Assembly: GCA_945881875.1 (NCBI GenBank)
Contig: CAMCVH010000003.1
Span: 62,001 to 126,000, forward strand
Reading direction: 5' to 3'
Length of the DNA stretch: 64,000 bases
DNA from: Polynucleobacter meluiroseus
Lineage (GTDB): Bacteria > Pseudomonadota > Gammaproteobacteria > Burkholderiales > Burkholderiaceae
How positions within the stretch are numbered: the stretch's first letter is position 1; each line of letters opens with the position of its first letter. The notes below the pieces were generated by a model. It ran no database searches. It saw only the letters and a program-made list of their open reading frames with translations, and was not told where the DNA came from. The position numbers were made by a program, and so were the translations under genes. This document shows positions 4,603 through 30,965 of this stretch, in pieces.

Positions 4603-4631
4603 ATCCTAATTGTAGGCTGTGAGATTAGAAT

Positions 4632-6104
4632 GTGCTTATGACAAATAAATTCAAATTTTGGTTAATTACTGTTCTTTTATCAGTAAGTACCCCAATCATG
4701 GCTAATAAGGCAGGTGATGCCAATGGCTTATCTGCGGAACAAGTATTTCAAATCTTAGCCTCTGAAATTGGTCTACAACGTGGCGAGGCGGGTATCGCTT
4801 ACCAAACATATATTGGTATGGCGAGGAATAGTAAAGATGGCCGCCTTGCTCAAAGAGCAATGGAGATTGCTATTGCAGCCAACTCACCTAATCTAGCTTT
4901 AGAAGCAGCTAGACTTTGGGATGAGATAGACCCTAAAGAAGCTAAAAATATATTCGGTACGCTTCTCATGATCAATCAACGCTGGTCTGAGAGTATTGTG
5001 CCCGCTCAAGTACAGTTAAAGAATACTAAAGGTTTAAGTGAAAAAGAAAAACTTATTAATTCTTGGCGTCCGCTGATCGCAAGAGCTCAAGATGAAGATG
5101 CTGGTTTAATTGCTTTTTATGAGATCACACGCACCACAATTCAGCAAATCAACAATGAAGATATCCTTTATTTTTTCTCTTTGGCAGCCGAAAAATCAAA
5201 GCAGTTTAATGAAATGGAGCAAACATTAAAACGTTTGATTAAAAAAAATCCAAATAACTCTAGTGCATTGAATGCGCTAGGCTACTCATATGCTGATAGA
5301 GGCATTAAATTAAACGAAGCAGCAGCATTGCTAGAAAAAGCACAAAAGCTGGCGCCAAAAGATATGTTAATCCTCGATAGCGTAGCTTGGGCCAACTATA
5401 AACTGGGTAAAAAAGAATTAGCCATAGAGCAACTTCAACAGGCATTTGAATCACAACCAGAGGCTGAGATTGGGGCCCACCTTGGTGAGGTTTTGTGGGT
5501 GTCATCAAATAAAGAAGCCGCCGATATTACTTGGCGTAAAGCAGAATCAATTGACGCTAACAATAAAACCTTAAGAGAAACTCTTGAGCGACTTTGGCCC
5601 ATGCGAGTGCCTAGCCCAAAAATAGTTGGTCATCAACAATTGTGGGATGGTCGTTTTGGAGTTAAGGTAACAGGTCAAAAATCAAACAATGGTGGTAGCG
5701 GAGGTTTTAGCTTATCGCATGATGGCCAAACAGATATTCTTGATATTAGAAATCCTCTCGGTAGTTCTTTAGCCAAAATAACAATAACTGCATCTGGTGC
5801 AAAGTTAGAAGATGGCGATAAAGTATTTGAAGCGCATGATGCTGACGCACTACTTCAAAATTATCTAGGACTACCTCTTCCGGCAAGGGGGCTGTCTTAT
5901 TGGTTAAATGGCCAAGCTAGAATTGGCTCCTCCGCCAAAATTGAAAGAGATCCAGCTAATAGAACATTAAAAATGATTCAGGATGGTTGGTTAATGAATT
6001 TTTCTTGGAATGAAAAACACCAACTTGAAAAAATGGATTTAGAGCGCCAAACACCAGATGGCCCTATTGTTATTAAGCTACTTTTCGAGCCTGTCGATAA
6101 TTAA
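4632..6104 (+). CDS. Fusion of a TPR-repeat exported protein and a C-terminal LolB-like domain
   Basis: N-terminal signal peptide, TPR-like region (NALGYSYADRGIKLNEAAALLEKAQKLAPKD), then a LolB-like segment (WDGRFGVKVTG...GLSYWLNGQA...GWLMNFSWNEKHQLEKMDLER). Sits directly before ispE, where lolB is typical. Confidence 0.75.
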   Translation: MLMTNKFKFWLITVLLSVSTPIMANKAGDANGLSAEQVFQILASEIGLQRGEAGIAYQTYIGMARNSKDGRLAQRAMEIAIAANSPNLALEAARLWDEIDPKEAKNIFGTLLMINQRWSESIVPAQVQLKNTKGLSEKEKLINSWRPLIARAQDEDAGLIAFYEITRTTIQQINNEDILYFFSLAAEKSKQFNEMEQTLKRLIKKNPNNSSALNALGYSYADRGIKLNEAAALLEKAQKLAPKDMLILDSVAWANYKLGKKELAIEQLQQAFESQPEAEIGAHLGEVLWVSSNKEAADITWRKAESIDANNKTLRETLERLWPMRVPSPKIVGHQQLWDGRFGVKVTGQKSNNGGSGGFSLSHDGQTDILDIRNPLGSSLAKITITASGAKLEDGDKVFEAHDADALLQNYLGLPLPARGLSYWLNGQARIGSSAKIERDPANRTLKMIQDGWLMNFSWNEKHQLEKMDLERQTPDGPIVIKLLFEPVDN

Positions 6105-6107
6105 TCC

Positions 6108-6968
6108 ATGGCAGCAAAAATCCATATTCTTGCACCTGCAAAAGTTAACCTTTTTCTGCATATAACCGGTAAGAGATCTGATGGTTATCACTTGCTACAG
6201 ACGATTTTTCAGTTAATCGATCTATGTGATGAAATCACCATAAAAAAAACAGAGGATGGGCTGATTACTAGATTAAATGGTGCTCAAAATGTCTCTGCGG
6301 AGCAAGATTTAGTCGTCAAAGCTGCCAAACTAATTCAAAGTAAGACCCAAACTAAATTGGGCTGTGAGATTTCATTAAAAAAAAATATTCCAATAGGTGC
6401 CGGTCTTGGAGGGGGCTCCTCAGATGCTGCTAGCGTTTTATGGGGACTAAACGAATTATGGGAAACTGGGCTAAAACGTAAAGATCTTATGCTCCTGGGT
6501 TTAGAGCTTGGGGCCGATGTACCCTTCTTTCTACTAGGAAAAAATGCCTTTGCAGAGGGTGTGGGAGAGGTTTTATATCCTATAGACCTTCCTAAAAAAA
6601 CAATTTTCATTATTTATCCAAACCTCCATATCTCGACTGAAGAGGTCTTTAAATCTTCAAATTTGACGAGGAATCACCCAACCGTTACAATCTCAGACTT
6701 TATTGAAGCTCCTCTTCAGGATCAATTTGGCTGTAACGATTGTGAAAAAGTGGTGGTTCAAAAGTATCGGGCGGTTGCTGATGCGATTGAATGGTTAGTC
6801 CAAAAGGCTCCTTTATCGAGTCCCAGGATGTCAGGGTCAGGTAGTTGTGTTTTTACGGTTGTTGATCATGATTTAGCCTCACAGTTGTTGAGACAACTAC
6901 CTAATCAGTGGCTAGGATTTGTAGCTCAGGGGCTTTCACAGCACCCGTCCTACGGTTCAAGTTCATAG
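6108..6968 (+). CDS. ispE: 4-(cytidine 5'-diphospho)-2-C-methyl-D-erythritol kinase
   Basis: APAKVNLFLHITGKRSDGYHLL; IPIGAGLGGGSSDAASVL GHMP motif. Confidence 0.96.
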   Translation: MAAKIHILAPAKVNLFLHITGKRSDGYHLLQTIFQLIDLCDEITIKKTEDGLITRLNGAQNVSAEQDLVVKAAKLIQSKTQTKLGCEISLKKNIPIGAGLGGGSSDAASVLWGLNELWETGLKRKDLMLLGLELGADVPFFLLGKNAFAEGVGEVLYPIDLPKKTIFIIYPNLHISTEEVFKSSNLTRNHPTVTISDFIEAPLQDQFGCNDCEKVVVQKYRAVADAIEWLVQKAPLSSPRMSGSGSCVFTVVDHDLASQLLRQLPNQWLGFVAQGLSQHPSYGSSS

Positions 6969-29528: not shown

Positions 29529-30965
29529 ATGTATCGCTCACTAAAGAGTATTGCCCTAGTTTGTACTGGTCTCATTGCTGGAGTTGCTTTAACTCTTCAA
29601 CTCTCTGCAACTGCTCAGCAAGGTTCATCAAATCTCCCACTTGATGAACTTAGAAGCTTGTCGAATGTTTTCGGCCAAATCAAGCGAGACTACGTTGAGC
29701 CTGTTGAAGATAAAAGATTGCTGACGGATGCCATTAAAGGAATGGTGAGTGGTTTAGATCCTCACTCATCTTATTTAGACAAAAAAGACTTTGCTGAAAT
29801 GCAGGAGCATACACAGGGTAAGTTTGCAGGTCTTGGTATTGAAATCACAGCTGAGGATGGGCTTGTCAAAGTTTTAAACCCAATCGAAGATACGCCTGCT
29901 GCCAGAGCTGGCATCCAACCAGGTGACTTGATAACTCGATTGGATGATAAGCCTGTTCGTGGCATGACATTAGATCAATCAGTTCGTCGTATGCGCGGAG
30001 AACCTGGAACAAAAATTACAATTACTATTTTTAGAAAAAGTGAAGATCGCACCTTTCCAGTAACAATTACCCGCGCTGAAATCAAAGTTCAATCAGTTAA
30101 GGCTAGGTTATTAGATGATGGCATCGCATATGTTCGAATTACAAGTTTTCAGGAACGAACTATTCCTGACTTAGCTAAGAAACTCAATGAGCTTTACGCT
30201 AAGACACCACAAATTAAAGGTGTTGTACTTGATCTGAGAAATAATGGCGGTGGATTATTGCAAGGGGCAGTGGGTGTATCTGCAGCGTTCTTACAAAATG
30301 ATGCTTTAGTTGTATCAACTAAAGGGCAAGCTGAAGACGCTAAACAACTTTTTAAAGCAACCTTTAGTAATTACAAACTTTCAGAAAGTAAAGACGCACT
30401 AGCGGAGCTTGCTCCTATTTTCAAAAAAGTCCCAATGGTTGTTATGGTCAATGCGTTCTCTGCATCAGCATCTGAAATTGTTGCGGGGGCATTACAAGAC
30501 CACAAACGCGCCACGATTATCGGTAAGACAACGTTTGGTAAAGGCTCAGTGCAAACTGTCAGGCCATTAACCAATGACTCTGCATTGAAGCTAACAACTG
30601 CTTACTACTACACACCCACTGGTAAATCTATCCAAGCTTTCGGAGTGAAGCCAGACATTCCGGTTGATCAAAATGCTGAGGGTGATCCTGATGATGTTTT
30701 GATAACGCGTGAAATTGATAGCGAGAAACATTTAAAAAATAAGCAGTCATCAGAAGAAAAACTCATTAAAGATCGTGAAAAACGTCGTCTAGAAGAGTTG
30801 CAGCGTATTGAAGAAATCAATGCTAAAAAAACTACTGAAGAAAAAGATAAAGATCGCAAAAAACGTCCACCTGAATTTGGAACAGCTGAAGACTTTATGC
30901 TGACTCAAGCTGCGGCTTATTTGAAAGGTCAACCGGTTAAACGTTCTAAATCTCGCCTTGAGTAA
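29529..30965 (+). CDS. S41 family C-terminal processing peptidase
   Basis: PDZ domain GIEITAEDGLVKVLNPIEDTPAARAGIQPGD; catalytic region NAFSASASEIVAGALQDHKRATIIGKTTFGKGSVQ. Confidence 0.94.
   Translation: MYRSLKSIALVCTGLIAGVALTLQLSATAQQGSSNLPLDELRSLSNVFGQIKRDYVEPVEDKRLLTDAIKGMVSGLDPHSSYLDKKDFAEMQEHTQGKFAGLGIEITAEDGLVKVLNPIEDTPAARAGIQPGDLITRLDDKPVRGMTLDQSVRRMRGEPGTKITITIFRKSEDRTFPVTITRAEIKVQSVKARLLDDGIAYVRITSFQERTIPDLAKKLNELYAKTPQIKGVVLDLRNNGGGLLQGAVGVSAAFLQNDALVVSTKGQAEDAKQLFKATFSNYKLSESKDALAELAPIFKKVPMVVMVNAFSASASEIVAGALQDHKRATIIGKTTFGKGSVQTVRPLTNDSALKLTTAYYYTPTGKSIQAFGVKPDIPVDQNAEGDPDDVLITREIDSEKHLKNKQSSEEKLIKDREKRRLEELQRIEEINAKKTTEEKDKDRKKRPPEFGTAEDFMLTQAAAYLKGQPVKRSKSRLE

Follow-up and report, generated by a model that had tools for sequence, protein, structure and literature searches.

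The window analysed here (a 64,000-nucleotide stretch of the Polynucleobacter meluiroseus contig CAMCVH010000003.1) carries a gene in which a TPR protein and a LolB domain are encoded together, in the gene order mutM (divergent), fusion, ispE, tRNA and prs. The original prediction had read a TPR protein and a LolB-like domain in a single ORF and had implied this gene order, and both held up: the frame is continuous from 4632 to 6104 on the plus strand, it has the expected Pfam matches and it is conserved genus-wide. The features discussed below are as follows.

4626..4631, plus strand: probable −10 box TAGAAT, 6 nt before ATG 4638 (a consensus reading of TTAGAATG, not an experimental one)
4638..6104, plus strand: fusion gene for an LbcA-like TPR protein and a predicted unlipidated LolB, 488 aa with no cysteine (ORF and translation, Pfam, genus-wide conservation)
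4638..4706, plus strand: signal sequence of the cleavable type without cysteine, residues 1–23 (sequence inspection; relatives have AxA-like ends and no conserved lipobox)
4725..5597, plus strand: LbcA-like TPR part, residues about 30–320, with an N-terminal adaptor-like region and C-terminal TPRs (PDB profile match, alignment, model)
5598..5636, plus strand: short linker, residues 321–333, at the site that holds the lolB signal peptide and lipobox in other genera
5637..6089, plus strand: LolB domain, residues 334–484 (PF03550; Foldseek to 1iwm)
5757..5759, plus strand: codon for Leu374, which aligns with Leu68 of E. coli LolB in the membrane-inserting loop (alignment to 1iwm NPLGST)
6108..6968, plus strand: ispE (ipk), an ORF 3 nt downstream of the fusion
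29529..30965, plus strand: CtpA-type S41 protease (PF03572; ORF), the presumed partner of the TPR half

ORF calling gave 490 aa when the frame was read from GTG 4632 and 488 aa when it was read from ATG 4638. The 490-aa frame first described is therefore a real continuous frame, but the start is probably ATG 4638 and not GTG 4632, and hence the protein would be 488 aa long. An upstream motif, TTAGAATGTGCTTATG, is kept in nearly all of the relatives compared, and nearly all of 28 sequences from the genus have TTAGAATG a few bases ahead of the ATG. Because the motif is conserved so close upstream of the ATG, the fusion mRNA is probably leaderless. The gene mutM, on the minus strand, and the fusion diverge across a 35-bp gap (4603–4637) that holds two probable −10 boxes; TACAAT at 4609–4614 is the probable −10 box of mutM, lying 6 nt before the mutM ATG, and both messages may be leaderless. 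This divergent promoter layout is kept across most of the genus. On the other side, ispE and the fusion probably belong to one operon; in P. aeruginosa, lbcA-lolB-ipk form a single operon (PMC6050968).

Several Pfam TPR models matched residues 182–275 of the fusion, albeit weakly, and the TPR half is all-helical in the predicted model. When a genus profile was compared with the PDB, the best solved relative of this half was LbcA (PA4667) of P. aeruginosa (E 2.1e-56), with a weak match over the stretch 27–138, which is the N-terminal adaptor region (25.9 bits), and a strong match over the stretch 131–327, which covers the C-terminal TPRs (172.7 bits). On the strength of this profile match, a generic TPR protein as the identity of this half was replaced by an LbcA homolog. 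We conclude that, as judged from sequence, this half is homologous to LbcA but shorter, a likeness that the original prediction had missed. In P. aeruginosa the outer-membrane lipoprotein LbcA recruits the CtpA protease and activates it (PMC6050968, PMC11021448), and several known substrates of CtpA are themselves predicted to be outer-membrane lipoproteins (PMC6050968).

Alignment with other genera of the family showed that about 230 central residues are absent from the TPR half, and we therefore use the name LbcA-like rather than LbcA. The full LbcA superhelix of 11 TPRs is not present, and the missing central TPRs are a possible substrate-binding part of LbcA. Likewise, the LbcA residues Gly46 and Phe48, for which bonds to CtpA have been reported, are not obviously kept. 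The window also encodes a CtpA homolog, which is the single PF03572 match in the genome and has P. aeruginosa CtpA (7rpq, E 3.7e-109) as its closest PDB sequence. The fusion probably serves as a CtpA adaptor as well, although this role is less certain than that of the LolB domain, given the weak adaptor match and the missing central TPRs. In the family at large, LbcA homologs (L135–L152) mostly have no lipobox, unlike LbcA of P. aeruginosa.

In the other half of the protein, PF03550 (LolB) matched residues 337–460 with 77.4 bits against a Pfam cut-off of 23.7, and all 41 of the aligned members were matched by the same model. The NCBIfam lolB model TIGR00548 gave a score of 43.1, below its equivalog cut-off of 59.6, and for this reason we describe the domain as a divergent LolB. 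In an AlphaFold model of the fusion (mean pLDDT 85) the LolB half is predicted to take the LolB fold, as had been proposed at the outset: Foldseek comparisons gave target-normalised TM scores of 0.70–0.74 (1iwm and 8orn, 0.74; 8cm1, 0.70), with an rmsd of 3.3 against E. coli LolB (1iwm), and the sequence similarity to the solved LolBs is low, at about 20% by structure alignment. In 41/41 sequences a hydrophobic residue (L, M, I, V or F) occupies the position aligned with E. coli Leu68, and at the tip of the loop Leu374 is flanked by P373 and G375, which are invariant in the 41 sequences. Leu68 is described for E. coli LolB as being required for membrane insertion (PMC11885536). A LolB search of the window's genome, which is 97% complete, gave this single match and no second lolB, nor was a second match seen in any same-genus genome searched.

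The same genome encodes LolA, in a single and ordinary-looking copy, a LolF-LolD pair, LspA, and BamD with a lipobox; the cell therefore makes outer-membrane lipoproteins that have to be delivered. The lipid anchor of LolB is thought to steer lipoproteins towards the outer membrane rather than letting them return to the inner one (PMC11784454). In E. coli, LolB is functional when its lipid anchor is absent (Tsukahara 2009, cited in PMC11885536); in F. johnsoniae the unlipidated LolB1 C17G complements fully (PMC11885536). Since engineered lipid-free LolB works in both E. coli and Flavobacterium, a natural unlipidated insertase is plausible.

A potential explanation that would not need to invoke insertase activity is that the LolB domain has become a module for binding membranes or lipoproteins by which the LbcA-like adaptor docks at the outer membrane, with a bifunctional LolA completing the delivery of lipoproteins. 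A LolA that is both chaperone and insertase is described for LolB-lacking bacteria such as Caulobacter (PMC11784454), and with most LbcA homologs of the family having no lipobox, some other link to the membrane could be useful. However, the loop residue is hydrophobic in every aligned sequence, the model has the LolB fold, LolA gives no sign of being other than single and ordinary, and the LolB domain is retained in 117/117 well-sequenced genomes of the genus. We regard docking as unlikely and prefer to view the domain as an insertase.

It is also conceivable that the protein is made as one chain and then cut in the periplasm to release soluble LbcA and soluble LolB, in which case the fusion would be a matter of co-expression only. 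The linker is short and variable, its residues 321–330 have a lower mean model confidence of 67, and the two halves are encoded by adjacent genes elsewhere, all of which would fit such processing. On the other hand, no conserved cleavage motif was seen in the linker, and the spacing from the end of the TPR match to the start of the LolB match is 9–14 residues in 80/80 loci, a near constancy that cutting would not need. Processing of this kind seems to us quite improbable, and we continue to treat the two halves as one working protein.

We found no cysteine anywhere in the 488-aa translation of the window protein and hence no lipobox, in line with the original prediction, whose further description of the signal as cleavable-type fits with inspection of the sequence and with the AxA-like ends in relatives. 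With no lipobox cysteine, the window protein is not a canonical LolB lipoprotein, and we claim membership of LolB for the domain only. We infer that the fusion product would be soluble or TPR-tethered in the periplasm. The signal might alternatively stay uncleaved, or be lipidated in some species, and so provide an inner-membrane anchor: the AxA site of the window protein is imperfect (IMA), and some Polynucleobacter relatives have a cysteine inside the signal core. Among 80 named loci, lipobox patterns were found in the signal sequence in few cases, strict in one and loose in four. Against an anchor of this kind, the window protein has no cysteine at all, most relatives have typical AxA signal ends, and the positions of the cysteines are not conserved; we therefore give it little credence and retain an unanchored periplasmic protein as the preferred reading. 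The strict pattern, LVAC, lies within the signal sequence of the fusion of a Polynucleobacter MAG (L206), and this particular fusion might be lipidated.

Across the genus, one LolB match was present in 144/151 genomes, including all 117 that are well sequenced. The frame ran for 455–546 aa without a stop in 140 of the 144 and was cut by contig ends in the other four. At loci from named Polynucleobacter records the frame was fused and open in 80/80 cases, P. necessarius included, and the nearest named record, a P. meluiroseus MAG, was 93% identical. Both halves are under purifying selection, with dN/dS of about 0.1 or lower where dS was measurable and of about 0.1 for each half in the closest pair. 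A missed stop or frameshift in the assembly, an alternative already raised by the original prediction, has a negligible chance of being correct, because the same continuous frame is conserved in all species examined, single-contig genomes among them, and sequencing error, a lost stop and chance are thereby ruled out.

The original prediction had also stated that the TPR protein and lolB are separate in relatives. This holds for loci from 16 further genera of the family, where lolB is a frame of its own with a cysteine at the lipobox position, but not for Polynucleobacter itself, where every uncut frame examined is fused. Where lbcA is present in other genera it ends just upstream of lolB, and this point carries a stop followed by a fresh start and a lipobox; in one genus (g2) the lbcA stop overlaps the lolB frame, which then encodes a signal peptide ending in LTSC. 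Elsewhere in the order, no fusion was seen in about 400 genomes among the matches listed for the window protein as query, nor in the 17 order members with long frames that were checked; at the level of the class, none was seen in 369 genomes among the matches listed for profile A1. Both surveys are samples. In genus g8, two relatives with small genomes of 1.1–1.2 Mb (L073 and L079) have a lipidated lolB, and no adjacent lbcA was detected, for which reason LolB looks to be the less dispensable half.

A shortened lbcA of about 335 aa is also found in f18, a family of the same order with small genomes (L122–L132 without L127). LolB is not recognised at Pfam level in these genomes, although two of them have, after lbcA, divergent LolB-like frames with a lipobox. 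In a quick tree the TPR part of the fusion grouped with the short lbcA of f18 (SH-aLRT 95). This grouping could reflect shared ancestry, transfer or parallel loss and is suggestive only; the LolB tree gave no resolved placement, and we therefore make no claim of origin by transfer.

With LolB (PF03550; E. coli 1iwm, V. cholerae 8cm1, X. campestris 8orn) the fusion has in common the fold and the hydrophobic-tipped loop, as well as being the sole copy, lying before ispE and occurring with the remaining Lol pathway; it differs in that its domain lacks a separate signal peptide and lipobox, would have no lipid anchor and is joined to a TPR protein. With LbcA (PA4667) it shares a gene position before lolB and ipk (here the LolB region and ispE), the N-terminal adaptor region, the C-terminal TPRs and a CtpA homolog, whereas the lipobox and about 230 central residues are missing and a C-terminal LolB domain is added. 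Engineered soluble mLolB and LolB1 C17G are likewise LolB without a lipid anchor, but the Polynucleobacter version is natural, fixed in the genus and fused to an adaptor. The bifunctional LolA of Caulobacter also represents outer-membrane insertion without lipidated LolB; there, however, both steps fall to LolA and no LolB exists, whereas Polynucleobacter keeps a LolB domain beside LolA. We found no paper describing a LolB-LbcA fusion in the literature searched.

Taken as a whole, the explanation that we consider probable is that the sole detectable LolB forms the tail of an LbcA-type adaptor, and that the protein is a periplasmic, unanchored insertase which also binds CtpA; export, cleavage, the absence of any anchor, insertase activity and CtpA binding are each inferred. 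The fusion would have been born in or before the Polynucleobacter ancestor, when lbcA lost its stop and lolB lost its start, its signal peptide and its lipobox. A cleavable signal sequence would export the protein, which would then act, free of any lipid anchor, in the periplasm; the LolB domain would accept lipoproteins from LolA and place them in the outer membrane, with the conserved hydrophobic loop as its membrane contact, while the N-terminal adaptor region would bind and activate CtpA and so control peptidoglycan hydrolases, as does Pseudomonas LbcA.

One unanchored Polynucleobacter protein thus probably combines two envelope functions that are divided between proteins elsewhere, and a genus apparently without a LolB anchor offers a natural test of the anchor's importance. 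The lbcA and lolB genes are neighbours in distant proteobacteria, and the fusion points to a connection between the delivery of lipoproteins and the control of cell-wall hydrolases by LbcA-CtpA. It is a more doubtful proposal that lipoprotein peptidoglycan hydrolases delivered by the LolB domain pass straight to the adaptor joined to it and to CtpA; if this were true, outer-membrane insertion and proteolytic control would take place at one site.
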